From the NCBI GenBank assembly GCA_018267055.1, contig JAFDZF010000105.1, forward strand, positions 1 to 42,462: 42,462 nucleotides of DNA. Reading direction: 5' to 3'. The position numbers and the translations under genes were made by a program. Each line of letters opens with the position of its first letter. The stretch's first letter is position 1. The notes under the pieces were generated by a model, which searched no databases, had not been told where the DNA came from, and saw only the letters and a program-made list of their open reading frames with translations. Positions 19,101-42,462 of the stretch are shown piece after piece. This DNA is from Bacteroidota bacterium. GTDB lineage: Bacteria > Bacteroidota > Bacteroidia > Flavobacteriales_F > PHOS-HE28.

Positions 19101-20992
19101 GGGGTGGTGGCGGTGAACTGCACGGGCTCGCCCGGGCACACGATGCGGTCGCCGCCGAGGTCCACCACGGGGATCGGCTCCACGGTGACGTGGATGGAAT
19201 CGTGCACGGTGCAGGCGCCGCGCATCACGTCCACCTCGTACGGCCCGGCGGAGCCCACGTCATAGGTGGCCGCCGTGGAACCGTCCTGCCAGCGGTAGAT
19301 GGCGCCGGCGGTCGTGGCGTCGAGCGTCAGCGGATCGCCGGCGCAGATGGTGCGGTCGCCGCCCAGGTCCACCGTTGGTCGGGGATCCACCGCCACGTGG
19401 AGGATATCGGTGGCGGAACAGGCGCCCCGGGTCACGGTCACGCTGTAATCGCCCGGCAGGTCCGCCTGGAGCGTGGCGAGCGTGCTGCCGTCGTTCCAGC
19501 CGTAGGTGGCGCCCGGCACCGTGGCGTCCAGCAGAAGCGTGGCTCCTTCGCAGAGCGTGGTGTCGTTGCCGAGGTCCACCGCGAACGGTTGGTCGAAGGC
19601 CACGGTGATGGCGTCGCTGGCGCTGCAGCCGTTGACCTTCACCGTCACGTTGTACGACCCGGGTTGATCGACGGCGAGCGTGGCCCCGGTGCTGCCGTCG
19701 CTCCACGTATAGGAGCCGCCCGGCAGCGTGGCGTCCAGCAGGAGCGTGGCCCCGGCGCAGAGCGTGGTATCGTTGCCCAGGTCCACCACCGGCAGCGGGG
19801 TATAGTCCACGTGGACCGACCGTGTGGCAGCGCAGCCGTTCTTGCGTACCGTCACTTGGTAGTCACCGGGTTGGGTCACCAGGAACGAGGCGTTCGTGCT
19901 GCCGTCCTGCCAGTTGTAGGTGACCCCGGGCCCCGGGACGAACGCATCGAGGAGGAGGGTCTCGCCGACGCAGAGCGTGGTGTCGTTGCCGATGTCCACC
20001 ACCGGGAGCGGGGTGTAGTTCACGGTGATCGCATCGCTGCGGCTGCAGCTGTTCGCGGTCACTGTCACGCTGTAGGTGTGCGAGGCGGGACCCGTCACCG
20101 GGTGCGTGGCGGCCGTGGTGCCGTCGTCCCACACGTAGGTGCCATTGGGGACCGTGGCGTCCAGGAGCATCTGCTGGCCTTCGCAGAGCGTGGTGTTGGG
20201 GCCGAGGTCGAACACGGGCAGGGGCGTCACGTTCACGCGCACGATGTCGCGCAGCACGATGGTGCCCGACACGCTGATGTCGTCGATGCCGATGTCGTTG
20301 CCCACCCCCCAGGCCGAGGTCACCTTGATGCAGAAGTTCGCCGAGGTCTGGTTGGGCCCGCTCGTCCAGGTGGTGCTGTAGGTCTGCCAGACGCCGGGGC
20401 CCACGGGCGTGGTGAAGCCCCCGGCCGACGCGCCGTCCACCCACCATTCCAGCGTGGGCGGATTGGGCGCGGAGAGCGCGCAGGCGCGGAAGCTGATCGT
20501 GTAGGTCTGGCCCGGGCACACGGTGATGTTCTGGCACCACACGTCCCACCAGCCATGCTGCCAGCCCGCGTTGGCCATCAGGAAATTGCCGTTGCCCACG
20601 CCGGTGAACTGGCTGTGGAACCAGCTCGCGTTCTGGCCGATGAAATAGTTCGGCTCGTTCCAGAGGTCGGGGCTGTAGGTGAACTGCGAGCTGAAGCCCG
20701 TGTTGCCCGCGCTGAAGTTGCCGTTCGTCACCAGGTTGCCGCTGGGGTAGCTCACCTGGCACCAGTAATCGTTGGCGACGCCCACCGTGATGTCGGGGGT
20801 GGTGGCGCCCGTGCTCCAGAGGTAATTGCTGAAGTTGGGCGGACCGTTCAGCTGCGTGGTCTGGCCCTGGCAGATGGTGCGGTCGGCCCCCAGGCTGATG
20901 GAGCAGTCGGGCTGGCCCTGGGCGAGCAAGGCGGCCCCCAGGCCCAGGAGGGCGCCTGCGGACCGCAGCGGAAGGAAGGACCGAAGCGCCAC
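16181..20992 (-). CDS. Giant T9SS type B cargo with 19 beta repeats and a nested carbohydrate-binding-like domain
   Basis: About 1603 residues, using a GTG start at 20992 that opens a clean signal peptide (ALRSFLPLRSAGALLGLGAA, ending LLAQG); an ATG at 21025 adds 11 residues, and a box GAACTTTG (21018-21011) lies 18 nt before the GTG. The body is 19 copies of a ~69-residue beta-sandwich-like unit with the signature LGNDTTLCPGATLLLDAT, then YxWxDGST, then GxYxVTVxxxGCxxxDxIxV. The first copy is interrupted by a ~160-residue domain (20264-20743; NLVTNGNFSAGNTGF to GNDIGIDDISVSG) that resembles CBM4/9-type modules. The C-terminal 93 residues are the T9SS type B sorting domain (EVFTPNAFTPDGDGINDGF, FDRWGAAIF, PWDGT, PPGVYVWSLHY, SVTLLR). 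A long surface adhesin or matrix protein is the likely role; no enzyme domain is seen. Confidence 0.9.
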   Translation of the reverse strand: MALRSFLPLRSAGALLGLGAALLAQGQPDCSISLGADRTICQGQTTQLNGPPNFSNYLWSTGATTPDITVGVANDYWCQVSYPSGNLVTNGNFSAGNTGFSSQFTYSPDLWNEPNYFIGQNASWFHSQFTGVGNGNFLMANAGWQHGWWDVWCQNITVCPGQTYTISFRACALSAPNPPTLEWWVDGASAGGFTTPVGPGVWQTYSTTWTSGPNQTSANFCIKVTSAWGVGNDIGIDDISVSGTIVLRDIVRVNVTPLPVFDLGPNTTLCEGQQMLLDATVPNGTYVWDDGTTAATHPVTGPASHTYSVTVTANSCSRSDAITVNYTPLPVVDIGNDTTLCVGETLLLDAFVPGPGVTYNWQDGSTNASFLVTQPGDYQVTVRKNGCAATRSVHVDYTPLPVVDLGNDTTLCAGATLLLDATLPGGSYTWSDGSTGATLAVDQPGSYNVTVKVNGCSASDAITVAFDQPFAVDLGNDTTLCEGATLLLDATVPGATYGWNDGSTLATLQADLPGDYSVTVTRGACSATDILHVAVDPRPTVDLGGDRTICAGDPLTLDATTAGAIYRWQDGSTAATYDVGSAGPYEVDVMRGACTVHDSIHVTVEPIPVVDLGGDRIVCPGEPVQFTATTPGATYLWNDDSTGPAITTDVPGSYSVQVTVNGCTGVGSAALANFGLQTVDLGNDTVVCAGNTVPLSLAIPGATYLWSTGATTDHIDAAVTADYWVDATLNGCTVRDSVQVTVTPLPVIDLGNDRLVCPGATVLLDATTANATYHWSDGSTGPSVQAGTGSWDVTVTVSGCSSTDHVEVGERVPPTIDLGNDTTLCPGATLELDASGPGLSAVWDHGPTNAVITVAASGTYGVTVTDAFGCTGHDAITVDHFALPAVFIGNDTTLCSNALITLDATTPGADDYVWNNGSTGTMLIAGGFGTYWVDVTFGTCVVSDSIEIATVGAPTVHLGNDTTLCPGATLLLHATASADATLAWDDGSTGSDLLVSGTGTYTVTATNAAGCTATDAIAVAYLDAQGVDLGNDTTLCPGATLLLHASLPGGTNHWNDGSTGATLPVNAAGTYTVDVTASGCSFSASIDVAYVDLPALSLGADRELCMGATLELAANDIPGAAYLWDDGSTGPHRSVDEGGTYWARATLSGCTTSDTVLVTAIPLPVVDLGNDTALCANTTLPLDVGMPGGTYHWNDGSTLPTRMAGPGTWSVEVTRQGCTSSDALTITERPTPVLHLPSDTTLCEGATWTIDVTQAGAGYLWQDGSTAGTYLVQAAGAYSVTASIAACTASAAVDVNYFSPSSLELGADTSLCPGASLRLEADIPNAAITWSDGSSGTSLLVQQPGAYQVQVNVGGCIAEDLIHVAYVPLVPPDLGGDRTLCEGDSLVLRIAPGSASVLWNDGSSADSLLVLAGGTYGVSLLLDGCSASDAVAIAYTPLVDHIDLGPDAAICPGRSLTLDATTAGATYRWSTGSHAASLVVTMPGLYHVQLSGPCINAADTILIAEGDCAPEVFTPNAFTPDGDGINDGFVPSFTGEPIAYLFLVFDRWGAAIFSSEAPGVPWDGTVDGEPAPPGVYVWSLHYRAVGDDGVTQRRLIGSVTLLR
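16463..20896 (-). repeat. Array of 19 degenerate ~207-bp coding repeats
   Basis: Coding repeats of the T9SS cargo, each about 68-71 codons. They are diverged at DNA level but keep blocks such as CAGAGGGTGGTGTCGTTGCC (plus-strand view of GNDTTLC), which recurs with small changes through the array. Copy 1 (nearest 20896) is split by the inserted domain at 20264-20743. Copies 12 and 13 (near 17690-18120) share an unusual LLLHA in place of LLLDA, which suggests a recent duplication of that pair. Confidence 0.85.
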
Positions 20993-21010
20993 GGTAGGAC
21001 TACAACGACC

Positions 21011-21018
21011 CAAAGTTC
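21011..21018 (-). promoter_or_regulatory. Possible -7 box GAACTTTG for the giant T9SS gene
   Basis: GAACTTTG on the minus strand, 18 nt before the GTG at 20992. It lies inside the coding stretch of the longer ATG (21025) version, so it argues for the GTG start. Confidence 0.35.
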
Positions 21019-21061
21019 GGGCCATTCCCCGGAAAGACGATGGAACGGGCCCCGGCGGTGT

Positions 21062-21715
21062 TCACCGGGCCGTGAACACCCGGTTCAGGCGCTCGTAGCG
21101 GTGCTCGTCGACGGTGGCGAAGGCACGGGCCAGGTTCGCTCCCACCAGCTGGCTGCGGGAGCGGCTGGGGGCGTCGTGCACCACCGTGTTGAAGCACAGC
21201 AGCCCGCCCGGGGCGGTGCAGCGGCGAAGCCCGGCGATGAAGGCCTCCGTTTCGATGCCCGCGGCCAGGTCCAGCTCGTGGAAGAGGTCCACCACCACCA
21301 GGGGGTAGGAGCGGTCGTGCGTGGCGACGAAGGCGTGGGCGTCCTGCTCGATGAGGTCGAGCCCGCCGAACGCGTCCACCTGGAAGGTCCCGCGGGCGAG
21401 GGCCAGCATGCGCGGGTCGTTGTCGACGCCGGTGATGGGGCAGGGGAGGTCCAGCTCGCGGCGGAGGATGGTGGCGGCGCTGCCGGCGCCGAAGCCCAGG
21501 AGGAGCACGCGCTCCGGCCGCCGTTCCGCGATGCCCATGTCGGCGAAGCAGAGCTGCCACACCCGGTGCAGGCTGCCATAGCTCTGGTTGGCACGCGCGC
21601 TGTTCACTACGGGACGGCCGTTCTCCCACACCACATGAAGAGGGCCGCGGGGCCCGTCGATGCGTTGCGCCGGGATCGGCCAGAAGTGGCTGAGGAAGCG
21701 CCGGAGACCGTCCAT
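21062..21715 (-). CDS. Spermidine-synthase-like methyltransferase-fold protein
   Basis: A 217-residue protein with the Rossmann fold of the polyamine aminopropyltransferase family. Motif I is VLLLGFGAGSAATILRREL (about 69-87), the acidic end of strand 2 is ITGVDNDPRMLALAR (about 93-107), then LDLIEQDAHAFVATHDRSYP (about 118-137), LVVVDLFHELDLA (about 138-150, in place of the DxxDP motif of true spermidine synthases) and the late strand GGLLCFNTVVH. The N-terminal beta-barrel of genuine SpeE is shortened and the Asp of the active-site DSTDP loop is not preserved in that form, so this is better called spermidine-synthase-like with unknown substrate. It is divergently transcribed from the cyclase gene across only 47 bp. 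Confidence 0.75.
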   Translation of the reverse strand: MDGLRRFLSHFWPIPAQRIDGPRGPLHVVWENGRPVVNSARANQSYGSLHRVWQLCFADMGIAERRPERVLLLGFGAGSAATILRRELDLPCPITGVDNDPRMLALARGTFQVDAFGGLDLIEQDAHAFVATHDRSYPLVVVDLFHELDLAAGIETEAFIAGLRRCTAPGGLLCFNTVVHDAPSRSRSQLVGANLARAFATVDEHRYERLNRVFTAR

Positions 21716-21721
21716 ACCGCC

Positions 21722-21729
21722 GCAAAGGT
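21722..21729 (-). promoter_or_regulatory. Predicted -7 box CACCTTTG for the spermidine-synthase-like gene
   Basis: CACCTTTG on the minus strand, 6 nt before the ATG at 21715. It is separated by only 6 bp from the plus-strand box of the cyclase gene, so the two promoters must overlap and probably compete. Confidence 0.4.
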
Positions 21730-21735
21730 GGGGGC

Positions 21736-21743
21736 TATCTTCG
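21736..21743 (+). promoter_or_regulatory. Predicted -7 box TATCTTCG for the first cyclase gene
   Basis: TATCTTCG, 19 nt before the ATG at 21763. The same octamer precedes the DUF1599 gene (26974-26981). Confidence 0.5.
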
Positions 21744-21762
21744 CGCCCCTCTCATCGGGTCC

Positions 21763-22809
21763 ATGATCACGCTCACCGCCGTCACCCGCTACAAGCTGCG
21801 CAAGCTGCTGAAGTACGGCCTGGTCACCGTGGCGGTAGGCGGCGTGCTGATGCTGTTCAACGGGCAGGGGCAGGGCGCCTACCTGGGCGCCTGGCTGCTG
21901 CTGGGCATCTGGACGGGCGTGCTGGAGGAGTTCCTGTTCGGCCGGCGGTTCCGCTCCCTGGCGGTGCCCCTGCAGTTCATCGGCAAGGCCCTGGCGGTGA
22001 ACGTGCTCACCATCGCGCTCATCTTCTTCGCCTTCGCCATCAACAGCGAGCAGCAGCTGCCGGGCGGCGGCGCGGGCACGACGCATGCGGGCCAGCTGAT
22101 GGCGATGAGGCCCTTCTACCGGCTGGCGGGCCAGGTGGTGGTGGTCACCTCCATCGCCATCCTCGTGGTGCAGGCCGAGGAGCTCATGGGCCGGCGCCTC
22201 TTCCTCGGCTTCCTGCTGGGCCGCTATGAGAAGCCTTATGCCGAGGAGCGCATCGTGCTCGACATCGACCTGGTGGGCAGCACGGCGCTGAACGAGAAGC
22301 TGGGCGACCTGCGCTACTTCCGCTTCCTCAACCTCACGCATTCGCTCATGACCGATGCGGTGCTGCGCAACGAGGCGGAGATCCACAAGTACGTGGGCGA
22401 CGAGGTGCTCTTCAGCTGGACCATGCGCGAGGGCCGGCGCGACCTGAACTGCCTCGACCTGTACTTCGACATCATGGAGCGGATCCAGGCGCACGAGAAC
22501 GACCTGCTCCGCGAGTTCGGGGCGGTGCCGCGCTTCCGCGGCGCGGTGCACGGCGGGCGCGTCATCACCGCGCAGGTGGGGCACATCAAGCGCGCCATCG
22601 ACTTCAGCGGCGACGTGATGAACACGACGAACCGCATCCTCGGGCTGTGCAAGGACCTGAAGGCCGACCTGCTGGTGTCGGAGGACCTGCTGAAGCGCAT
22701 GCCCGATGCGGAAGAGCGCTTCATCCTGGGGCCGGAGCTGGTCCTGCCCGTGAAGGGCCGCCGGCGGGAAGTGCGGGTGCGCGCGGTGCAGCGGGCGCGG
22801 AAGGTCTGA
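21763..22809 (+). CDS. Membrane-anchored class III adenylate cyclase (cyclase 1)
   Basis: A 348-residue protein with four likely membrane helices (about 17-32, 40-58, 67-92, 121-138) and a C-terminal class III nucleotide cyclase domain (about 163-340). Metal-binding Asp169 lies in DLVGST and Asp213 in KYVGDE; Lys209 and Asp280 (AIDFSGD) occupy the adenine-specifying Lys/Asp positions; Asn287 and Arg291 (MNTTNR) form the transition-state NxxxR motif. All key positions are therefore present and adenylate cyclase activity is predicted, with cAMP made in the cytoplasm. The membrane domain may sense something in or near the membrane. It is paralogous to the cyclase at 23986-25047, which has lost several of these residues. 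A separate transcript with its own -7 box. Confidence 0.85.
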   Translation: MITLTAVTRYKLRKLLKYGLVTVAVGGVLMLFNGQGQGAYLGAWLLLGIWTGVLEEFLFGRRFRSLAVPLQFIGKALAVNVLTIALIFFAFAINSEQQLPGGGAGTTHAGQLMAMRPFYRLAGQVVVVTSIAILVVQAEELMGRRLFLGFLLGRYEKPYAEERIVLDIDLVGSTALNEKLGDLRYFRFLNLTHSLMTDAVLRNEAEIHKYVGDEVLFSWTMREGRRDLNCLDLYFDIMERIQAHENDLLREFGAVPRFRGAVHGGRVITAQVGHIKRAIDFSGDVMNTTNRILGLCKDLKADLLVSEDLLKRMPDAEERFILGPELVLPVKGRRREVRVRAVQRARKV

Positions 22810-30543: not shown

Positions 30544-31308
30544 ATGCGAACGATCATCGCCGGCAATTGGAAGATGCACAAGGACCGCACGGAGGCGGAG
30601 AACCTCCTCGATGCCATCGCGGCCTCCGGCCCGTTCGACGGCGTGGAGGTGCTGGTGGCGCCGCCGTTCCCCTTCCTCGACCTGGCGGTGCGCCACGTGG
30701 GGGGCAAGGGGGTGCGGGTGGCGGCGCAGAACTGCCACGAGGCCGGCCAGGGCGCTTTCACCGGCGAGGTGGGCGTGCCCATGCTCCGGTCGCTGGGCGT
30801 GGGGGCCTGCATCGTGGGCCACAGCGAGCGGCGCCAGTACTTCGGGGAGACCGACGTGATGGTGGGCCGGAAGGTCGCCGCGCTGCTGAAGGACGAGCTG
30901 CAGCCCATCTACTGCTGCGGTGAGCAGCGTGCCGAGCGGGAGGGCGGCACCCATTTCGACGTGGTGGCCACCCAGCTGCACACCGCCCTGAGCGGGTTGG
31001 GACCGAAGGAGATCGCGCGGTTGGTGGTGGCCTATGAGCCCGTGTGGGCCATCGGCACCGGCCTCAACGCCACGCCGGAACAGGCGCAGGAGATGCATGC
31101 GTTCATCCGCGCCGAGCTGCGGAAGCTCGCGGGCGACGCGGCGGACGCGATCCCCATCCTCTATGGCGGCAGCTGCAAGCCCGATAATGCGGCCGGGCTG
31201 TTCGCTGGCGCCGACGTCAACGGCGGCCTCATCGGCGGCGCCTCCCTGGTGGCCGATCAGTTCATCGCCCTGGTGCGCATCGCCCGGGACGCAAAGCGGA
31301 CGGCGTGA
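30544..31308 (+). CDS. tpiA: Triosephosphate isomerase
   Basis: A 254-residue TIM-barrel enzyme that interconverts dihydroxyacetone phosphate and glyceraldehyde 3-phosphate in glycolysis. Active-site segments are intact: AGNWKMHK (about 6-13, Asn and catalytic Lys), GHSERRQYF (about 97-105, catalytic His), AYEPVWAIGTG (about 165-175, catalytic Glu and the flexible loop) and YGGSCKPDNA (about 208-217). The start at 30544 gives the standard N-terminus MRTIIAGNWK; the 51-bp upstream extension is not conserved-looking. It begins the operon with prmA, whose GTG start overlaps its stop. Confidence 0.97.
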   Translation: MRTIIAGNWKMHKDRTEAENLLDAIAASGPFDGVEVLVAPPFPFLDLAVRHVGGKGVRVAAQNCHEAGQGAFTGEVGVPMLRSLGVGACIVGHSERRQYFGETDVMVGRKVAALLKDELQPIYCCGEQRAEREGGTHFDVVATQLHTALSGLGPKEIARLVVAYEPVWAIGTGLNATPEQAQEMHAFIRAELRKLAGDAADAIPILYGGSCKPDNAAGLFAGADVNGGLIGGASLVADQFIALVRIARDAKRTA

Positions 31309-32138
31309 AGTACACCGAGGTCGACTTCCTCCTGGCCCCGCTGGAGCCCTGGCGGGACATCCTGCTGGTGGAGCTGGGCGAGCTGGGCTATGACAGCTTC
31401 GAGGAGACCATGCACGGGCTGCGGGCCTACATCCCCACCGAGCGCTTCGAGCGCACGGCCCTGCGGTCGCTGCTCACCCTGCGCGACCCGCACGTGACGG
31501 TGACGCATACCGTGCGCGAAGTGCCCGAGACCAATTGGAACGCGCAGTGGGAGAGCAGCTTCCGGCCGGTGGAGGTGGGGCGCCAGGTCCGCATCCGGGC
31601 GGAGTTCCATCCCCACGAGGAGGGCTTCGCCCACGAGATCGTCATCACCCCGCGCATGGCCTTCGGCACGGGGCACCACGCCACCACGCGCATGATGGTG
31701 GAGGCCATGCTGCAGCTGGACCTGCGGGGCCAGGAGGTGTGCGACCTGGGTTGCGGCACGGCGGTATTGGCCATCCTGGCCGAGCGGCTGGGCGCCCGGC
31801 ATGTGCTGGCGGTGGACATCGACGGGAACGCGGTGGCCAATGCCCGCGAGAACACGGCCTTGAACGGATGCCACCACATCACCGTGGAAAAGGGCGAGGT
31901 GGGGCTCCTGGCGCCGCGGACCTACGGCACTATTTTGGCGAACATCGAACGGAACACGCTGCTGCGCGACATGGCCGCCATGCGCGATGCCCTGGCCGCG
32001 GGCGGCGCATTGCTGTTGAGCGGGTTCATCCGCCAGGACCGCCAGCGCATGCTCGACGCCGTCCAGGAGGCGGGGCTGCGGCCTGTGGAGGACCTGGAGG
32101 AAGGGGAATGGGCATTGATCGGATGCAGAAGACCATGA
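31305..32138 (+). CDS. prmA: Ribosomal protein L11 methyltransferase
   Basis: A 277-residue PrmA, which trimethylates several amino groups on ribosomal protein L11 with S-adenosylmethionine. The start is a GTG overlapping the tpiA TGA (GTGA, 31305-31308). The substrate-binding N-domain (about 1-65) is followed by the catalytic domain with FGTGHHATTRMMVEAML (about 123-139), motif I EVCDLGCGTAVLAILAERLG (about 145-164), VDIDGNAVANARENTALNG (about 171-189) and the ANIERNTLL motif (about 210-218, matching the NIxxNxLL signature). The next gene's ATG overlaps its stop (ATGA). Coupling to tpiA is usual in Bacteroidota. Confidence 0.95.
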   Translation: MKYTEVDFLLAPLEPWRDILLVELGELGYDSFEETMHGLRAYIPTERFERTALRSLLTLRDPHVTVTHTVREVPETNWNAQWESSFRPVEVGRQVRIRAEFHPHEEGFAHEIVITPRMAFGTGHHATTRMMVEAMLQLDLRGQEVCDLGCGTAVLAILAERLGARHVLAVDIDGNAVANARENTALNGCHHITVEKGEVGLLAPRTYGTILANIERNTLLRDMAAMRDALAAGGALLLSGFIRQDRQRMLDAVQEAGLRPVEDLEEGEWALIGCRRP

Positions 32139-35100
32139 GCAGGATCACCGGCCACCTGTCGTCCACCGTCCGTTGCGCGGCCGGCCTCCGGAGGTCCCTC
32201 CGCCTGTGGATCGCGCTGGCCCTGCCGCTGGCGCTCATCGGCCGGGCCGACGCGCAGACCAAGCCGTTCACCAACGACCAGGCGGTGTTCCTGCAGGAGA
32301 TGACCGACTTCCTGGTGGGGGCGGACAAGAAGGAGGGGAAGCCCTTCATGGAAAGCGTGTTCACGCCGGCATGGAACGGGCCCTTCTTCTCCACCGAGCA
32401 GCGCACGCGCGTGGTGGGCATGGCCAACGTGATGCTGAAGAAGCGCTTCGAGGCCTTCCCGTCGTTCCAGGACTACCTGGGATCGCTGGTGGCCTTCGCC
32501 TCCAGCGGGCGCAGCGCGGCGGACTTCGACACCTGGATGAAGTGCCTGGAAGCGGCGGGGGCCAGCTCCCGCAAGCAGAACCTCGCCGACCTCATCGCCA
32601 TGAGCGCGGGCCTCTTCAAGGACAACACCTTCTACAGCAGCGCCAGCACGCGGTGGCGCACCCGCACCAAGCAGTTCACCTTCGCCTTCGACAGCATCCC
32701 CAAGGTGGTCTTCGGCGCCACCGACCTCATCTGCCTGGCCAAGGGCGACAGCGCGGTGATCGCGAACACCAGCGGCACCTACTACCCCACGCAGCAGCTC
32801 TGGCATGGCAAGGGCGGCCGCCTCACCTGGGAGCGCGCGGGCCTGAAGCCCACCAGCACCTTCGCCGAGTGGGACCACGCCTACACGGTGAAGGCGAAGA
32901 GCTCCGATATCGAGGTGGACACGGTGCGGTTCACCGACCCCTACTTCGACCACAAGCTGATGGGCCGCCTCACCGACAAAGTGATGGCGAACGTGACCAA
33001 GGAGAACGCCAGCTACCCGCGCTTCGAGAGCTACGACCGCCGGATGAAGATCCGCGACATCATCGAAGGGCTCGACTTCGAGGGCGGCTTCACGCTGCAG
33101 GGCGCCAAGCTCCAGGGCTACGGCACCAAGGAGGAGCCGGCCTACCTCACCTTCTACCGCGACAAGCGCCCCTTCATCATCACGGCGGGCCTCAACTACT
33201 CCATCGAGCCGGACAAGGTGGCCAGCGAGGACGTGGGCGTGGTGATCCGGCTGGACAAGGACTCCATCACGCACCCCAGCGTATCGCTGCGCTTCCTGCG
33301 GGGGAAGAAGCAGCTGGCGCTGATCAAGCGCGACGAGGGCCTGTCCAAGGGCCCCTTCTATGACACGTACCACAAGCTGGACATGTACTTCGAGGAGCTG
33401 ACCTGGAAGCAGGGCGACCCGCTGTTGCAGATCGGCAACCTCCAGGGCTCGTCGCAGACGCGCACCTCGTTCGAGAGCTCCAACTACTTCAAGGAGAAGC
33501 GGTACATGGCCATGCTGGGCATCGATGCGGTGCACCCGCTCTCGCGCCTGCGCGAGTTCGGCAAGCAGGCCGGCGACGACTTCGGCGCGAAGGAGTTCGC
33601 CGTGTACACCAAGATGCAGATGGAGCAGGTGATCCCCATGCTCATCGACATGGCCAACAAGGGGTACATCGATTACGACCCCGAGGAGCAGCACGTGCAC
33701 CTGAAGCCGCGCCTGCGCGAGCACATCCTGGCCAGCGCCGGCAAGGTGGACTACGACGTGCTGCAGTTCAACAGCACCAGCGAGGACGGCGTGAACGGCA
33801 CCATCAACCTGCTGAACAACGACCTGGCATTGAAGGGCGTCTCGCGCATCGTCCTCAGCGACTCGCAGGATGTGAAGATCTACCCGAGCGACAAGCTGGT
33901 GACCATCAAGAAAGGCCGCGACTTCACCTTCGGCGGCAACATCCAGGCGGGCAAGCTGAACTATTACGGGAAGGAGTACTACTTCCACTACGACCCTTTC
34001 GTGATCGACCTGCTGAACGTGGACAGCGTGAGCTTCTATGCCGACAGCTTCGAGCCCGACGAAAAGGGGCAGCGCGCCCTCATCCGCGTGAAGAACGTGC
34101 TGGAGAACGTGACGGGGACGCTGGAGATCGATGAGCCGAGCAACAAGAACGGCCTGCAGCAGAAGAAGTACCCGCAGTTCCCCAAGTTCAACAGCACCAA
34201 GGAGAGCTTCGTGTTCTACGACAAGAAGAGCATCCAGAAAGGGGCCTACAAGCGTGACAAGTTCTACTACAAGAGCGATCCCTTCCAGATCGACAGCCTG
34301 GACAACTTCACCAACGAGGGCCTCACCTTCTCGGGCACGCTGATGAGCGCGGGCATCTTCCCGGACATCCGCGAACCCATCCACCTGCAGCCCGACTACG
34401 CGCTGGGCTTCGTGCGCGCCACGGGTGACGGCGGCCTGCCGCTCTACGGCAAGAAGGCCAAGTTCGCCAACACCATCAAGCTCGACCGGAAGGGCCTGCA
34501 CGGCGAGGGCGACCTCACCTACCTCACCACCATCGCCAGCAGCAAGGACCTCGTCTTCACGCCCGACACCACCTTCGGCGTGGCCGACACGCTCTACAAC
34601 GGCGCGGCGCAGAGCAGCACCATGAACGTGCCCAACGTGCACGCGGGCAACGTCTTCCTGCGGCTGGAGCCCGCCAAGGACGTGCTGCTGGCGCAGAAGA
34701 TCGACCGGCCCATGGTCATGTACGAGGGGCAGGCCTTCCTGCACGGGCGGACCGAGCTGACGCCGAAGGGCATGACGGGCGCCGGGCTCGTGGACTTCAC
34801 CAACGCCACGCTGGCCTCGGCCCTGTTCGACTTCAAGACGATGAAGCTGCATGCCGACACCAGCGACTTCCGGCTCACGGAAGGCGACACGTCGAGCATC
34901 GCGTTCAAGACCGACAACGTGAACGCCACGGTGAAGCTGGACGAGCGGGTGGGCGAGTTCGTGAGCAACGGCAAGAACACCAAGGTGGAGTTCCCGGTGA
35001 ACCAGTACATCTGCTTCATGGACCGCTTCAAGTGGTTCATGGACCAGGGCGACATCGAGCTGGAGAGCGACGCCACCGCGGCCGCGGGCAGCCAGGACCT

Positions 35101-36637
35101 CCAGCTGTCGGGCAGCAACTTCATCAGCGTGCGGCCGGACCAGGACTCGCTCAGCTTCATGGCGCCCAAGGCGCGCTACGACCTGAAGAAGCACCTCATC
35201 ACCGCGAACGACGTGCGCTACATCCAGGTGGCCGATGCGCTGATCACGCCGGACAGCATGCGCGTGCGCGTCCGCCGCAACGCCGAGATGGACCCGCTCA
35301 CGCACGCCACCATCACGGCCAACTTCGTCACCAAGTACCACACCATCACCGACGCCACGGTGAACATCAAGGCCAAGCGCCAGTACAGCGGCAGCGGCAG
35401 CTACGACTACATCGACGAAACGAAGAAGGCCTTCCCGATCCGGCTGCAGAACATCAACGTGGACACGGCCTACCAGACGTATGCGCGCGGGCGGATCACC
35501 CAGGAGGAGAGCTTCCAGCTGAGCCCCGCCTTCGACTTCTTCGGCGACGTGCTGCTGGAAGCCTCGAGCAAGGAGCTCACCTTCACGGGCAGCACCCGCA
35601 TCCAGCACGACTGCCCGGGCATCGCCCGCAACTGGATGGGCTTCAGCGGCAAGATCGACCCGCTGGAAGTGTTCATCCCCGTGGGCGACTCGCTGCGGGA
35701 CAACGAAGGCCTGCCGATCGGCGCGGGCATCTACCTCACCAAGGACGACCCCTTCAAGACCTACGGCACCTTCCTGAGCCGCAAGCGCGACAAGGCCGAC
35801 CGCACCATCATCAGCGCCAAAGGGCTGCTCTTCTACGACAAGGCGAAGACGGCCTACATGATCTCCAACAAGGACAAGATCCGCCAGCGCGACCTCCCCG
35901 GCGACCTGGTGAGCCTGAACGTGAACGACTGCAAGCTCACCGCCGACGGGCGCATCGGCCAGGGCGTGGACCTGGGCCGCGTGAAGGCACAGGGCTTCGG
36001 CAACCTCGAGTTCCGCGGCGACAGCGGCCTGGCCAGTGCGCAGGTGACGCTCTATGCCGACTTCTTCTTCCTGGACAACGCGCTGGACAAGATGGTGGCC
36101 GACATCAAGGCCTACCCGGACCAGAAGCAGGTGGACATCGGCAAGACGCCCTATGAGCGGTCATTGCGCGAGGTGCTGGGCAAGGAGCAGAGCGACAAGC
36201 TGATCAGCGAGCTGAACATCAAGGGCGAGATCAAGCGCCTGCCCGACGAGCTGCGGAAGGCGCTGGTGCTCTGCGACCTGAAGCTGCACTGGAACGCCGA
36301 GGAGGAGGCTTGGCAGAGCCGGGGACCGATCGGCGTGGGCACCGTGCTGAAGGAGCCCGTGTTCCGCTACCTCAAGGGCAAGGTGGAGTTCCAGCGGAAG
36401 CGCAGCGGCGACGTGATGACCGTACTGTTGATGCTGGACGACCAGACCTACTGGTTCTTCCAATACGCCCGCAATTACCTTTATGCCTACAGCAGCAGTG
36501 CGGAATTCAACACGATGCTCAGCGAACTGAAGGACGACAAGCGCCAGCTGGAGAGCAAGAAGGACGAGCCGGCCTACCAGTTCATTCTCACCAACAAGCG
36601 CAAGGTGGACGAATTCCGCGACCGCTTCGGTCTTTGA
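32135..36637 (+). CDS. Very large exported beta-rich protein, unrecognised
   Basis: A 1500-residue protein. The start at 32135 (ATGA overlap with prmA) gives a signal peptide of about 45 residues (MSRITGHLSSTVRCAAGLRR, SLRLWIALALPLALIGRADA, then Q). The first ~300 mature residues are helical and globular (QAVFLQEMTDFLVGADKKEG, a Lys/Arg-rich core). From about residue 300 to 1350 the sequence is a long run of short beta strands with alternating hydrophobic pattern and loops rich in Gly, Asp, Lys and Asn, for example GFTLQGAKLQGYGTKEEPAY, FTFGGNIQAGKLNYYGKEYY, GLHGEGDLTYLTTIASSKDL, GAGLVDFTNATLASALFDFK. The end is helical and charged (about 1310-1500; TNKRKVDEFRDRFGL). No T9SS sorting domain or lipobox is visible. 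The pattern recalls beta-helix, beta-taco or AsmA/OstA-like envelope proteins, but I cannot place it in a family. Translationally coupled to prmA and followed 3 bp later by plsY. Confidence 0.8.
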   Translation: MSRITGHLSSTVRCAAGLRRSLRLWIALALPLALIGRADAQTKPFTNDQAVFLQEMTDFLVGADKKEGKPFMESVFTPAWNGPFFSTEQRTRVVGMANVMLKKRFEAFPSFQDYLGSLVAFASSGRSAADFDTWMKCLEAAGASSRKQNLADLIAMSAGLFKDNTFYSSASTRWRTRTKQFTFAFDSIPKVVFGATDLICLAKGDSAVIANTSGTYYPTQQLWHGKGGRLTWERAGLKPTSTFAEWDHAYTVKAKSSDIEVDTVRFTDPYFDHKLMGRLTDKVMANVTKENASYPRFESYDRRMKIRDIIEGLDFEGGFTLQGAKLQGYGTKEEPAYLTFYRDKRPFIITAGLNYSIEPDKVASEDVGVVIRLDKDSITHPSVSLRFLRGKKQLALIKRDEGLSKGPFYDTYHKLDMYFEELTWKQGDPLLQIGNLQGSSQTRTSFESSNYFKEKRYMAMLGIDAVHPLSRLREFGKQAGDDFGAKEFAVYTKMQMEQVIPMLIDMANKGYIDYDPEEQHVHLKPRLREHILASAGKVDYDVLQFNSTSEDGVNGTINLLNNDLALKGVSRIVLSDSQDVKIYPSDKLVTIKKGRDFTFGGNIQAGKLNYYGKEYYFHYDPFVIDLLNVDSVSFYADSFEPDEKGQRALIRVKNVLENVTGTLEIDEPSNKNGLQQKKYPQFPKFNSTKESFVFYDKKSIQKGAYKRDKFYYKSDPFQIDSLDNFTNEGLTFSGTLMSAGIFPDIREPIHLQPDYALGFVRATGDGGLPLYGKKAKFANTIKLDRKGLHGEGDLTYLTTIASSKDLVFTPDTTFGVADTLYNGAAQSSTMNVPNVHAGNVFLRLEPAKDVLLAQKIDRPMVMYEGQAFLHGRTELTPKGMTGAGLVDFTNATLASALFDFKTMKLHADTSDFRLTEGDTSSIAFKTDNVNATVKLDERVGEFVSNGKNTKVEFPVNQYICFMDRFKWFMDQGDIELESDATAAAGSQDLQLSGSNFISVRPDQDSLSFMAPKARYDLKKHLITANDVRYIQVADALITPDSMRVRVRRNAEMDPLTHATITANFVTKYHTITDATVNIKAKRQYSGSGSYDYIDETKKAFPIRLQNINVDTAYQTYARGRITQEESFQLSPAFDFFGDVLLEASSKELTFTGSTRIQHDCPGIARNWMGFSGKIDPLEVFIPVGDSLRDNEGLPIGAGIYLTKDDPFKTYGTFLSRKRDKADRTIISAKGLLFYDKAKTAYMISNKDKIRQRDLPGDLVSLNVNDCKLTADGRIGQGVDLGRVKAQGFGNLEFRGDSGLASAQVTLYADFFFLDNALDKMVADIKAYPDQKQVDIGKTPYERSLREVLGKEQSDKLISELNIKGEIKRLPDELRKALVLCDLKLHWNAEEEAWQSRGPIGVGTVLKEPVFRYLKGKVEFQRKRSGDVMTVLLMLDDQTYWFFQYARNYLYAYSSSAEFNTMLSELKDDKRQLESKKDEPAYQFILTNKRKVDEFRDRFGL

Positions 36638-36640
36638 ACC

Positions 36641-37291
36641 ATGGACTTCCCCTGGGTGTACGGCATCACCGCCATGGTCATCGGCTACCTGTGCGGCAGC
36701 ATCCCCACCTCCGTCTGGTGGGGGCGTGCCTTCTACGGCCTGGACGTGCGTGAGCACGGGAGCCGCAACGCGGGCGCCACCAACACCTTCCGGGTGCTGG
36801 GGCCCAACGCGGGCATCCCGGTGCTGATGATCGACGTGCTCAAGGGCTTCCTGCCCGTGCGGCTGCTGCCGGCCTGGAGCGGCCTGGAGCCCGGCACCGA
36901 CGCCTGGACACTGCTGCGCGTGGCGCTGGTGTTCGCCGCCGTGCTGGGCCACCTCTATCCGGTGTTCGCCGGCTTCCGCGGGGGCAAGGGCATCGCCACC
37001 TCGCTGGGCGGGGTGCTCGCCATCCATCCCGGCTCCGCGCTCATCTGCATCGGCGTCTTCGCCCTGGTCTTCTGGGCGCGGCGCTACGTCTCCCTCGCCT
37101 CGCTCGCCGCCGCCCTGGCCTTCCCCTTGTCGGTGGCCCTCGTCTTCCGTGAGCCCAGCGGCGTGCTGCTGGGCTTCGCGATCGTGCTGTGCGCACTGGT
37201 GTTCTATACCCACCGGCAGAACATCGGGCGTTTGTGGAGGGGAGAAGAGGGGCGCTTGCGGCTGGCGGGAAGGTCCCCCGCCAAGCCATGA
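36641..37291 (+). CDS. plsY: Glycerol-3-phosphate acyltransferase
   Basis: A 216-residue integral membrane PlsY, which transfers acyl groups from acyl-phosphate to glycerol-3-phosphate in the first step of phospholipid synthesis. The three cytoplasmic-loop motifs are present: GSIPTSVWWGR (about 19-29), REHGSRNAGATNTFRVLG (about 37-54, with the catalytic Ser-Arg-Asn) and GHLYPVFAGFRGGKGIATSLG (about 104-124, Gly-rich, with the GGKG turn). Hydrophobic helices cover most of the rest. It starts 3 bp after the stop of the 1500-residue gene. The C-terminal ~20 residues (GEEGRLRLAGRSPAKP) form a short basic tail. Confidence 0.94.
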   Translation: MDFPWVYGITAMVIGYLCGSIPTSVWWGRAFYGLDVREHGSRNAGATNTFRVLGPNAGIPVLMIDVLKGFLPVRLLPAWSGLEPGTDAWTLLRVALVFAAVLGHLYPVFAGFRGGKGIATSLGGVLAIHPGSALICIGVFALVFWARRYVSLASLAAALAFPLSVALVFREPSGVLLGFAIVLCALVFYTHRQNIGRLWRGEEGRLRLAGRSPAKP

Positions 37292-37332: not shown

Positions 37333-40300
37333 ATGATGACCCGCTCAACGGGCATAGGATTCCTCGTGTGCCTGCCCTTCGCCGCCCTCGCCCAGGGGGG
37401 GGGCAAGGACCTGCGCACCAAGGCCGACGCGCTGTTCGCCCAAGGCGAATACGCCCAGGCCATGCCCCTGTATTCCCAGCTGGTCAGCCTCACGCCCGAC
37501 GACCGCGAGCTCAGCTATCGCTACGGCACCTGCTCCCTTTACGGCGGCGAGGACAAGGAGAAGGCCATCGGCTTCCTGAAGTACGCCACTGAGGGGCCCA
37601 CGCCCCCGGCCCTGGCCTGGTACTTCCTGGGCAAGGCCTACCACCTCACCTACCATTTCACCGAGGCGCTCGCCGCCTATGAGCACTACCGCGGCACCGC
37701 GGACAAGAAGGCCTTCGCCGAGCATCCGGTGGACGCGCTCGAGCAGCAATGCCGCAACGGGAAGAACCTCCTGAGCAACCTCAAGGAGATCGCCGTGCAC
37801 AACAAGGTGGAGGTGGCCGGCGCCGAGTTCTTCCGCTTCTATGACCTCAGCGACATCGGCGGCAAGATCGTGGTGACGCCCGACGAGCTGAAGAGCTCCC
37901 TGGACAAGAAGAGCAAGATCACCGGCCTGGTGTACCTGCCGGCCAAGGGCGGTCCCATCTACTTCAGCAGCTACGGCAAGGACGGGAAGACCGGCCGCGA
38001 CATCTACCGCACGGAGCTGCTGCCCACGGGCGAGTTCGCCACCCCGGTGAAGCTCGCGGGCTACATCAACACCAACGAGGACGAGGACTACGCCTGCATG
38101 GCGCCCGACGGCCGCAGCTTCTACTTCAGCAGCAAGGGCCACAACAGCATGGGCGGCTACGACGTGTTCCGGAGCACGTACGACAAGGCCTCGGACGTCT
38201 TCGGCCCGCCGGAGAACCTGGATTTCGCGGTGAACACGCCGGATGACGACGTGTTCTACCTGGTGGACGCCGAGGGCAAGGAGGCCTGCTTCGCCAGCGG
38301 GCGCGACAGCAAGCAGGGCATGCTGCACGTGTACCGGGTGGGCACCACGCAGGCGCCCATCAACATCACCGTGCTCAAGGGCACCTTCGCCTCGCAGTTC
38401 GACCCGGCCGACCGCAAGGCGCACATCGTGGTGGAGGATGCGCTCACGCGCGAACAGGTGGCCGATGTGCGTACCGACATCAATGGCGACTACGTGCTGG
38501 CCCTCCCGCGCGGCGGCAAGTACAAGTTCATGGTGCAGGCGGGGCCGAGCGGGCGCACGCATGCCGGCATGGTGGAGCTGCCGCGCGCCGAACAGCCGCA
38601 GGCCTTCCGCCAGGAGATGCGGCTGATCGACCAGGGCGGCGAGAAGCTGATGATCAAGAACTACTTCGATACCCCCTTGCAGGAGGACATCATCGCCCTG
38701 GCACTGGACGAGATCAAGCGCCGCGCGCGCCTGGACGTGAACGGCAGCCAGCCCATGGCGCAGCAGCCCGTGGAGCAGAAGCCCACCGGCGACGTGATGA
38801 CCCGGGCCGGCTTCACCGGAGACCGCACCCCGCAGGATGCGGTGCGCCTGGCCCAGGAGGACGCCACCGCCCTGACCGGACAGGCCCGGCAGGAAGGCGA
38901 GCAGGCCCGGGCCGCCTATGCGCTGGCCCTGGCCGGTACCGACGAGGCCGAGCAGGCCGCCGACCGCGCGAAGGACCTGGTGGCCCAGGCCGGCACCGCC
39001 ACGGACGAAGCGAAGAAGAACGAGCTGATGATGCAGGCCGCCCGCGAACGGCAGCGCTCCCGCGAGGCCAACACCCGCGCGCGCGCCGCCTACCGCACCG
39101 CCCAGGACCTGGACGCCGCACGGCTGGCCACGCAGCAGCGCGGTGAGCGGGCCGCGCAGCTCAGCACCACCCTGGCCAAGGCCGTGGAGGCCGGCAACGA
39201 CGAAAGCACGCTGACCGCCCTGCAACAGTTGAAGGCCCGCCTGGACGAGCGCGACGGTCCCACGGCCCAGGCCGATGCCGCCGAGCGCACCCGCCGAGCG
39301 GCCTCCGAGAAGGAGAAGGAAGCGGCCAGGAAACTGCAGCAGGCCAATGCGCGGCGCGACGAGGAGAACGAGCTGGCCGACCGCATCGGCCGGTCGAAGC
39401 GCGAAGCGGAGGAGGCCAAGGGCAAGCGCAAGGAAGACCTGGCCAAGGAGATCGCCCAACTGGAGGAGCAGCAGCGCTTCCTGCGGGAGGAAGCGGGCCA
39501 GGCTTTCGCCAAGGCGAAGGAAGCCGAGCGCGAAGCGGCCATGGCCCGCGGGCAGGCGGGCTTGATGACGCACCTGTCGACCCAGGCCGGTGCCGCCCCG
39601 GCGGAAGCGCCGGACGCTGCGAAGATCGCGGCGTTGGGCGAGCGCATCGGGGCGAACGAGACGCGCATCGCTGCCACGGCCGTGGATGAACGCTACGATG
39701 CCGCCATCGCCGTACCGGCCGCCGTCGCCGAGCAGCGCACGTTCGACTGGGGCCGCACCGACGCCGTGGCCGATCAGGCCGCTCCCAGCCGCCCCACCGA
39801 GGCCGCCCAGCGCGACCCGGAACAGCGCACCACGCGGACGGGCACGGCAGCGGCCGAAGCCCCGGCGGCAGCGCCGGTGGATGCGACGGCGGGTATCCCG
39901 GTGAAGCCCGCGGCGGACGCTCCCGTGCGGAACGATCGCCCTGCGGAGGAACGGCCGGCGACAGCATCCCCCGTGCCGGCGCGGGCCCCCACCGAGACGG
40001 CCTCGATGCACGGCATCGCCACGCCCGACAGTGCACACGGCGGGAACGCCACCGAGGAGGGAACAGGAACGGCATCCGCATCGGCGGCCGGAACGGACCG
40101 GTCCGCGGAGCGCACGGCCACGCCGGAGGCCGACGAACCCGAAGAGGAGGCCTTCCTGCTCGCGAACCAACTGGCCGAGCTGCACCAATTGCGGCTGGTG
40201 GAGAAGGACAAGGTCCGGCAGGACAGCCTGGACCGTGCCATCGCTGGCACGGAACAGCGCATGCGCAGGACACAGCATACGGAGGCGCCCATTGAGGAGC

Positions 40301-42462
40301 CGGAGCCCTCGTCCGAGGAAGCCGGGATCCCCGCTCCGGAGCGTCCGGAGTTCGACCTCGCGGCGCTGGAGTTCGACCCGGCCATGCTGGACAGCCTGCT
40401 GCTGGAGGACATCTATCCGGGCTTTTTCCATGATCGTCGTCGGATCATGACGAACCAGGAGGACCCTGAGCGCGGCATCTCGCTGCATGGTCTGGAGATG
40501 ATGCTGGTGGACAGCATCGATGCCCAGGTGCGCCGCCAGCTGGCCACGCTGGAGAAGGCGCCCGAGAAGGCTTCGGTGGTGCTGCCGCGCATGGAGCGCC
40601 TGCGGACGCTGAAGCAAGCGCGCCTGAAGGAGGCCACGGTCCTGCTGGAGCAAGCGAACGCCGCGGCCGCTCCTGTCCCAGCCGCCCCGGTGGCCACGGC
40701 CCCCACGCCGCACAACGACAGCTACATCGCCGTGGCTTCGCGCCCGGACCGCATCTATGAGAGCGTCATCGACCACCGCTCGCCGAAGGTCACGGAAGCC
40801 GTGGCGCTGAAGGACAAGGACCTGGAGCGCATGATGCGGATGGAGGAGACCATCGACTCGCTGGAGACCGTGCTCGACGGCATGCCCGGCGGCAAGGCCT
40901 GGGACAAGTTGCGCCAGCGCACCGACCGCTTGATCGACGACCACCTGATCCTGCGTACCGAGCTGGGGCAGCGCATGGGGCACGTCATGAACGACGAGTT
41001 CGCCGCCGCCAAGGACAGCACCGAGGCCCTGGCGAAGCGGTCGGCCGCGAAGGGCTTCGCGCCGGACGAGCCGCTGCTGAAGAAGGCGCAGGGCATGGAA
41101 GGGGAGGCGGCCGGTGCCATGCTGGACGCCGCGGCCCTGCGCAAGCGCGCCGAGCGCACCGAGAACATCGTGGTGCGCGACAGCCTCTACCGCCAGGCTT
41201 ATGCTGCGGAGCTGGGTGCCCTGCGCACCATGGACCGTGCGCAGACCGTGCGCAGCTACATGCTCAGCGACGGCTTCCAGCCCGGCGAGGACATCGCCTA
41301 CGCCCTGGTGGAACGCCGCCTGTTCGACCGGTCCACCACGTCCCAGACCTGGGCCGCCTCCGAAGGCACGCCGGCCGCCATGGCTCCCGTCACCGCGGCG
41401 CCTGTGGTCCGTACGCCGGCGCCTCCGGCCCCGGTCACCACCGCCCAGCAGGCCCGGGAGCGTTCCGCGGAACTGGAGCGCGGCTCACAGGACCTGCAGG
41501 CACGCGCCACCGCGCAGCGCGACAGCGCGGCTACGGTGCGGGGACAACAGCAGCAGCGCATGGCCCAGCGGGCCGAAGCATCGCGCCATCGGTCGGATTC
41601 ACTGCACGCGGAAGCGCAGCGCATGGACGTCCTGGCCCAGCGACTGGGCGAGGAGGAGCGCGTCACGGCCGAGCGGGAGACGCTGAAGAAACGCCTGGCC
41701 GGCTACTACTTCCTCTCGGCGGAAGAGCAGACGCTCGTGCTGCAGGAGGAGGACCACAGCCGGTATTTCCAGGCCAAGGTGAAGTCGCTCGACCAGCGGG
41801 CCCGTGCCGGCGCCGACCTGGCCCAGGCGGACAGCAGCGCGAAGCTCGCCGCGGAACTGGTCCGGAAGGCCGCCGCGCTCCGGCAACCGCCGGCCGGCAA
41901 TGCCGCCCCGCAGGAACAACGGCTGCAGGAGGCCGCCGCCCTGGACACACGCGCTGCGCGGCTTACCGCGCAAGCGGACTCGCTGCGCAATGCGGCCCGC
42001 AACCTGGACCAGGCCGCCACAGTGAACGACGCCCAGGCCGCCGTGCTCTTGCAAGGGCTACCCGAGGACCGTTCCACGGCGATCATGGCCATGGAGCAGC
42101 GCACACGCCGCCCAGGAACGGCCGCGATCGCCGCACCACTGCCGTCACCGGTACCGACCAGCAGGCCGGAGCCTCCGGCACCGGTGGTCGCCGCCGTCAC
42201 GCCGCCTGCAGCGAAGGAGCCTGTAACACCGACCGGAGCGGCCCCGGAACAGCCGGTCGTCCGGACGGACGGACCGGTGGCCGTGGTGCCCTCGCCGGCC
42301 GCAGCGGAGCCGTCGCACCCGGCCGCTCCGGCCCCGGAGCCGGCCAAGCCCGCCACCGCCCCGGTGAGCACGCCTGTGGTCAGCACCCCGCCGCCTGCCG
42401 CTCCCGCATCGCGGCCGACGACGGCCCCGATGCAGCCGGTCGCGACCGAGCGTCCGCAGCCC
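37333..42462 (+). CDS. Giant TPR-PD40-CRD protein with coiled-coil and Ala/Pro-rich regions (partial, right edge)
   Basis: An open frame of 1710 codons running off the window with no stop; codon pattern and protein content show it is the real gene. Signal peptide MMTRSTGIGFLVCLPFAALAQ, then GGGKDLRTKADALFAQGEYA starting a TPR block (about 25-150). Next comes a PD40-type beta-propeller segment (about 190-340: PIYFSSYGKDGKTGRDIYRT, YACMAPDGRSFYFSSKGHNS, MGGYDVFRS) and a carboxypeptidase-regulatory-like segment (about 343-406: NITVLKGTFASQFDPADRKA, VRTDINGDYVLALPRGGKYK). This head is the arrangement of PorE-type T9SS envelope proteins. Instead of an OmpA-like domain, a long Ala/Glu/Arg-rich coiled coil (about 500-745), Pro/Ala/Thr-rich linkers (about 750-930 and 1340-1380) and further helical blocks follow to the edge. 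A run of nine G (37395-37403) encodes the residues right after the signal peptide. An OmpA-like or other anchor may lie beyond the edge. Confidence 0.85.
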   Translation, partial: MMTRSTGIGFLVCLPFAALAQGGGKDLRTKADALFAQGEYAQAMPLYSQLVSLTPDDRELSYRYGTCSLYGGEDKEKAIGFLKYATEGPTPPALAWYFLGKAYHLTYHFTEALAAYEHYRGTADKKAFAEHPVDALEQQCRNGKNLLSNLKEIAVHNKVEVAGAEFFRFYDLSDIGGKIVVTPDELKSSLDKKSKITGLVYLPAKGGPIYFSSYGKDGKTGRDIYRTELLPTGEFATPVKLAGYINTNEDEDYACMAPDGRSFYFSSKGHNSMGGYDVFRSTYDKASDVFGPPENLDFAVNTPDDDVFYLVDAEGKEACFASGRDSKQGMLHVYRVGTTQAPINITVLKGTFASQFDPADRKAHIVVEDALTREQVADVRTDINGDYVLALPRGGKYKFMVQAGPSGRTHAGMVELPRAEQPQAFRQEMRLIDQGGEKLMIKNYFDTPLQEDIIALALDEIKRRARLDVNGSQPMAQQPVEQKPTGDVMTRAGFTGDRTPQDAVRLAQEDATALTGQARQEGEQARAAYALALAGTDEAEQAADRAKDLVAQAGTATDEAKKNELMMQAARERQRSREANTRARAAYRTAQDLDAARLATQQRGERAAQLSTTLAKAVEAGNDESTLTALQQLKARLDERDGPTAQADAAERTRRAASEKEKEAARKLQQANARRDEENELADRIGRSKREAEEAKGKRKEDLAKEIAQLEEQQRFLREEAGQAFAKAKEAEREAAMARGQAGLMTHLSTQAGAAPAEAPDAAKIAALGERIGANETRIAATAVDERYDAAIAVPAAVAEQRTFDWGRTDAVADQAAPSRPTEAAQRDPEQRTTRTGTAAAEAPAAAPVDATAGIPVKPAADAPVRNDRPAEERPATASPVPARAPTETASMHGIATPDSAHGGNATEEGTGTASASAAGTDRSAERTATPEADEPEEEAFLLANQLAELHQLRLVEKDKVRQDSLDRAIAGTEQRMRRTQHTEAPIEEPEPSSEEAGIPAPERPEFDLAALEFDPAMLDSLLLEDIYPGFFHDRRRIMTNQEDPERGISLHGLEMMLVDSIDAQVRRQLATLEKAPEKASVVLPRMERLRTLKQARLKEATVLLEQANAAAAPVPAAPVATAPTPHNDSYIAVASRPDRIYESVIDHRSPKVTEAVALKDKDLERMMRMEETIDSLETVLDGMPGGKAWDKLRQRTDRLIDDHLILRTELGQRMGHVMNDEFAAAKDSTEALAKRSAAKGFAPDEPLLKKAQGMEGEAAGAMLDAAALRKRAERTENIVVRDSLYRQAYAAELGALRTMDRAQTVRSYMLSDGFQPGEDIAYALVERRLFDRSTTSQTWAASEGTPAAMAPVTAAPVVRTPAPPAPVTTAQQARERSAELERGSQDLQARATAQRDSAATVRGQQQQRMAQRAEASRHRSDSLHAEAQRMDVLAQRLGEEERVTAERETLKKRLAGYYFLSAEEQTLVLQEEDHSRYFQAKVKSLDQRARAGADLAQADSSAKLAAELVRKAAALRQPPAGNAAPQEQRLQEAAALDTRAARLTAQADSLRNAARNLDQAATVNDAQAAVLLQGLPEDRSTAIMAMEQRTRRPGTAAIAAPLPSPVPTSRPEPPAPVVAAVTPPAAKEPVTPTGAAPEQPVVRTDGPVAVVPSPAAAEPSHPAAPAPEPAKPATAPVSTPVVSTPPPAAPASRPTTAPMQPVATERPQP
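37395..37403. repeat. G9 homopolymer inside the start of the giant gene
   Basis: Nine consecutive G bases within codons 21-24, immediately downstream of the signal peptide sequence. Gain or loss of one base would shift the frame at the very beginning of the mature protein; one of the two alternative frames stops at 37592. Confidence 0.7.

Follow-up and report, generated by a model that had tools for sequence, protein, structure and literature searches.

A PorE-like head, a long helical spacer and tandem SPOR domains: a predicted outer membrane-cell wall tether of Bacteroidota

The window analysed here, a stretch of 42,462 nucleotides from a Bacteroidota bacterium, is an entire contig (C6) of its genome and ends where the contig ends, inside a frame that remains open from 37333 to 42462 (1,710 codons, zero stops, starting with MMTRSTGIGFLVCLPFAALAQ). 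The preliminary description had correctly stated that no stop is found inside the window, and had proposed that a PorE-like head is joined to a giant body, with the OmpA-like wall anchor either displaced far away or replaced.

Domain architecture of the protein

The head, approximately residues 1-460, is composed of a signal peptide, a TPR block, a PD40 propeller and a CRD-like domain. The signal peptide (MMTRSTGIGFLVCLPFAALAQ; 37333..37395, + strand) was assigned by sequence inspection and is without a lipobox cysteine; the Cys of its h-region (FLVC) does not fit a lipobox, and the orthologues have no Cys at that place. The TPR block (37396..37780, +) is supported by Pfam TPR_14 (E=3.5e-4) and by a fold match of the model, residues 1-128 of which align with solved TPR domains at a best Z of 17.0 (rmsd 2.2, 119 aligned). 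The PD40/beta-propeller region (37790..38380, +) has a Pfam PD40 match, beta strands at pLDDT ~80-90 in AlphaFold and the conserved motif SKGHNSMGGYD; the Pfam match recurs in 17 of the 20 rows of the full-length alignment A1, 19 rows of which are proteins holding the head region. The carboxypeptidase-regulatory-like (CRD) beta domain (38381..38720, +) is drawn from Pfam and from AlphaFold, which places beta sandwich strands at residues 342-422 of the model. CarboxypepD_reg reaches a best E of 7.7e-5 among orthologues and gives a weak match in the window protein (E=0.069), and the domain is missing from the orthologues L043 and L046. In the window copy TPR, PD40 and CarboxypepD_reg follow one another in that order, each below the Pfam gathering score, and AlphaFold gives high confidence to the TPR and beta domains. 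Among NCBIfam models, the propeller/CRD part matches CHU_0125_OmpA (E 2.6e-26) and PorE (T9SS_PorE; E 5.7e-20), both far below the cut-off. TPR rows fill the list in the PDB fold search of the head model, in which propeller and CRD are hardly sampled. The domain order by Pfam and AlphaFold, together with these NCBIfam matches, bears out the designation of the head as PorE-like.

The spacer begins with a helical block of two long hairpins (38820..39720, +; helices of 46-62 residues, pLDDT ~90), which carries a heptad signal in part and holds a recurring hairpin motif. It is followed by a disordered Pro/Ala/Thr-rich linker (39721..40130, +; pLDDT ~30, composition), by more helical hairpins split by linkers (40131..42100, +; heptad test, motif profile and AlphaFold, also of the orthologue L047), and by a Pro/Ala-rich linker (42101..42462, +) that reaches the contig end and resumes on contig C131 (locus L003 1-350). 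The AlphaFold model of window residues 22-1100 (19 sequences, mean pLDDT 78.6) comprises the TPR and beta domains, head-to-tail hairpins, ~125 disordered residues and further hairpins. The C-terminal half was modelled on L047 (15 sequences, mean pLDDT 75.6), giving further hairpins, a disordered linker and then two beta-alpha-beta-beta-alpha-beta domains. Heptad periodicity is ~2-6 times chance in most orthologues, only in parts, and equal to chance in one; the profile of the recurring hairpin motif detects it in sequences outside its training set and never in shuffled bodies. As modelled, the spacer of more than 1,200 residues is a series of helical hairpins on flexible linkers, not one rod. 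The earlier wording, more than 1200 residues of coiled coil and low-complexity sequence, can be retained as it stands; a single continuous coiled coil, if that was meant, would be too strong in view of the heptad test and of the hairpins, linkers and disorder of the AlphaFold models.

The C-terminus is read on contig C131. The window's final 218 bases (42245-42462) overlap L003 1-233 at 89% identity with a 15-base length difference, and the last 53 bases are identical. C131 extends the frame by 385 codons to a stop (L003 1158-1160), and the resulting protein of ~2,018 aa is a composite joined from two contigs through this 89% overlap of their ends. Downstream on C131 lie clpS and an M48 peptidase gene, and in intact orthologues clpS and, in many, M48 come after the same ORF, so that synteny backs the join in addition to the overlap. 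That the overlap is imperfect points to a Pro/Ala linker that varies between strains of the population.

Two SPOR domains are found on this extension, SPOR1 (L003 ~378-605; Pfam SPOR E=3.5e-6, above cut-off) and, after a linker, SPOR2 (L003 ~865-1095; alignment and model), and they end the protein ~1,300 residues beyond the head. Pfam detects no OmpA domain at the C-terminus on L003, and a standard OmpA end soon after the window is ruled out by the reading past 42462. Of the two fates proposed for the anchor, replacement is what we observe, by tandem SPOR domains; an OmpA domain located far away is not.

The assignment of the SPOR fold is supported by several observations. The Pfam match in the window's own protein scores 27.7 bits against a gathering score of 21, and 13 of 14 SPOR1 sequences match the Pfam model at E<=0.01. 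The solved SPOR domain of CwlC is matched at E=1.9e-4 with the alignment in the same register, and the SPOR domains of the L047 model, in their beta-alpha-beta-beta-alpha-beta order, have pLDDT values of 82-93. Conservation in the tail is highest in SPOR1, with Q13, G15, A16, F17, R43 and G47 invariant among the 14 sequences aligned; in SPOR2, Q176 and R206 are invariant. Glycan is contacted by Q270 and R309 in RlpA, equivalent to Q251 and R285 in FtsN (PMC6895207), and Q13/R43 and Q176/R206 correspond to the RlpA pair in the register set by the VQxGAF motif and the R-x3-G spacing. The PDB fold search of the C-terminal model returned generic helical matches only, with no SPOR chain among the matches listed; an 80-residue domain is probably masked in a model of 1,050 residues, and the result is no evidence against SPOR.

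The number of SPOR domains varies, with two in the window's genus and three in other families, where the third is without the arginine. In families f4 and f9 the proteins are shorter and keep the head, but carry only a degenerate SPOR-like end; the SPOR anchor is therefore not shared by all members of the protein family. In division proteins, SPOR domains recognise septal glycans that have been denuded (PMC6895207), and the OmpA_C domain of PorE binds the peptide stem (PMC7192894). We infer from the sequence that the anchor has been swapped from a peptide-binding OmpA domain to a fold known for peptide-free glycan, which this copy would likewise bind.

Relatives and gene neighbourhood

The head recurs in most genomes sampled from the genus (61-72% identity) and, with 34-44% identity, in further families of the same class. 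Class-wide, the head profile (A2) matches 138 of 296 genomes (68 of 165 genera), and the SPOR-tail profile (A3) matches 121 of the 296 genomes searched. Among the primary head matches listed (129), 100 carry head and SPOR tail in a single ORF (1,488-2,601 aa, median ~2,117), and several of the listed matches without a tail are cut by contig ends. The intact orthologues have the same domain order as the composite. At the sequence level, the order signal peptide-TPR-PD40-CRD-helical/disordered spacer-SPOR is conserved as one protein, and the architecture seen in the window is thus present in related genomes. In a draw of 198 genomes of the phylum, which was not restricted to other classes, the SPOR tail occurs in two, both in this class. 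No curated family model takes the protein as a member, and the literature searched on SPOR with PD40/PorE or Bacteroidota, a scope outside which most subscription journals lie, contains no description of it.

In an unrooted tree of head domains, the SPOR-tailed heads stand apart from the genome's OmpA-type paralogues, and the OmpA-less L060 and L062 lie between. L060 (G000:C41:1727-3163), the nearest head paralogue in the genome (E 8.6e-90), is a 537-aa protein with the TPR-PD40-CRD head alone and no wall anchor; head matches in other genomes repeatedly include ORFs of about this length. Two head copies are found in ORFs of ~980-1,000 aa at G300:C13, G186:C6, G269:C4, G253:C42, G066:C27, G213:C86 and G255:C19 (families f33, f36 and f40). 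Further SPOR proteins also exist, as ORFs of ~700-780 aa located elsewhere in the genome match the tail profile (G264:C102, G076:C3, G094:C7, G066:C40 and others).

In the window, tpiA is followed by prmA, a 1,501-aa exported protein, plsY and the candidate tether gene, with clpS and M48 next on C131. prmA (31305..32138, +) is a conserved flanking gene, the second giant exported protein (32132..36637, +) is adjacent in 13 families, and plsY (36641..37291, +; glycerol-3-phosphate acyltransferase, TIGR00023 above cut-off) adjoins the candidate tether gene. The placement beside lipid synthesis and another giant exported protein, as originally described, is therefore accurate. In other families (L035, L037, L042-L045), nfeD and then the flotillin-like floA come after clpS. 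Elsewhere in the window, two overlapping frames lie on opposite strands (16181-21025, -, 1,614 aa; 16670-21766, +, 1,698 aa); GC-rich DNA presumably accounts for one of them as a shadow ORF.

The 1,501-aa neighbour has no sequence match in Pfam, NCBIfam or the PDB, is 34-73% identical across families and occurs in 240 of the 296 class genomes. It lies within 3 kb of the candidate tether gene in at least 52 genomes from 13 families, and a comparison of two lists finds it missing from only one of the 138 head-positive genomes, a co-occurrence for which the Fisher test ignores phylogeny. Since the remaining neighbours common to other families (prmA, clpS, nfeD and floA) are mostly housekeeping genes, adjacency alone is no proof of joint function.

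Predicted function and alternative explanations

We propose that the protein acts in the periplasm as a tether that joins outer membrane and cell wall, a predicted function to which we give a probability of roughly 60%. The evidence supports the earlier idea of an elongated periplasmic envelope protein. The protein would be exported by Sec, and its TPR/propeller head could dock on a partner in the outer membrane or periplasm, in the way PorE docks on PorP, a beta-barrel. The SPOR domains would hold glycan strands that have been stripped of peptides by amidases and are enriched at division sites, and hairpins on flexible linkers would provide a long, compliant reach. The outcome would be an outer membrane-wall link concentrated where the wall is remodelled or split, replacing the stem-peptide OmpA link of PorE. 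The protein shows a PorE-type head combined with another kind of wall anchor, one known to target amidase-processed glycans of division sites; if the proposal is right, the hold between outer membrane and wall, perhaps also constriction at division, would be testable with one gene.

A more extended proposal is held only tentatively, and we regard it as doubtful: that this is a widespread unnamed Bacteroidota tether in which SPOR domains at the end of a >1,200-residue spacer bind denuded glycan, couple the outer membrane to the division site as a stand-in for Tol-Pal, and act with the adjacent 1,500-residue exported protein.

The head is homologous to PorE, which holds PorP at the wall (PMC9143113), and SprA is encoded in the genome; the protein might accordingly scaffold the T9SS, or else a PorP-like/type B surface protein, in the manner of PorE, with SPOR merely replacing OmpA as the wall anchor. 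This seems rather unlikely. SprA is present in 288 of the 296 class genomes, whereas the head is present in 138, so that more than half of the T9SS genomes are without the candidate tether; it is probably not a core T9SS part and would be dispensable for the T9SS in most lineages. As SprA is nearly universal in the class, the distribution of the T9SS gives no positive support and was rejected as a link. Moreover, the genome has a separate TPR-PD40-OmpA PorE, and no PorP-like or T9SS gene recurs beside the candidate tether gene in the orthologue neighbourhoods. The link to the T9SS is weak.

The protein could also act in division like FtsN, DamX or RlpA, with SPOR directing it to the septum and the head recruiting or regulating wall enzymes, with no tethering of the outer membrane. 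The residues by which SPOR domains of division proteins recognise their glycans are kept, as described above; however, sequence inspection and Pfam reveal neither a transmembrane anchor nor a catalytic domain in the protein as encoded in the window, its length and the flexibility of its spacer speak for reach and not for catalysis, and absence from more than half of the class implies that it is not an essential divisome part. We consider this role distinctly unlikely. A surface fibre, one of the options of the preliminary description, or an adhesin, for which the very long helical, low-complexity body would speak, is highly improbable given the C-terminal peptidoglycan-binding folds and the absence of any NCBIfam match to a T9SS C-terminal sorting domain.

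Comparison with known wall-binding proteins

PorE of Porphyromonas gingivalis (T9SS; NF052230), which binds PorP and peptidoglycan (PMC9143113, PMC7192894), shares with the candidate tether the TPR-beta-propeller-CRD order and a C-terminal wall-binding domain. PorE has ~670 aa versus ~2,000 and ends in OmpA_C, directed to the stem peptide, whereas the candidate tether ends in tandem SPOR domains, of which the known examples are directed to peptide-free glycan. PorE is an outer-membrane lipoprotein, while the candidate tether has no lipobox by inspection; the lipobox discriminates poorly, since the genome's PorE-like protein L055 is likewise without one. The NF052230 score is 71 bits against a cut-off of 600, compared with 508 for the genome's best PorE candidate, a separate TPR-PD40-OmpA protein that is accompanied by further PorE-like proteins. 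Of the features of PorE, the TPR, PD40 propeller and CRD are present and the OmpA_C end is absent. Because of the missing OmpA end and a score below the family cut-off, we file the protein as a TPR-PD40-CRD wall-tether variant, not as PorE.

The best-scoring NCBIfam model for the head is CHU_0125 of Cytophaga hutchinsonii (NF053607), a Pal/OmpA-like outer-membrane integrity protein, at 92 bits, which does not reach the cut-off of 620. CHU_0125 ends in OmpA and lacks a long spacer, whereas the candidate tether has no OmpA domain and a long spacer. FtsN, DamX, DedD, RlpA and CwlC have the same SPOR fold and glycan-contact residues, but they are short and mostly membrane-anchored or enzymatic, in contrast to the two or three tandem SPOR domains found here. 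To our knowledge, none of these five has a TPR-PD40-CRD head. The candidate tether would thus resemble PorE in linking a scaffold head to the wall, with a different wall target and a longer reach.
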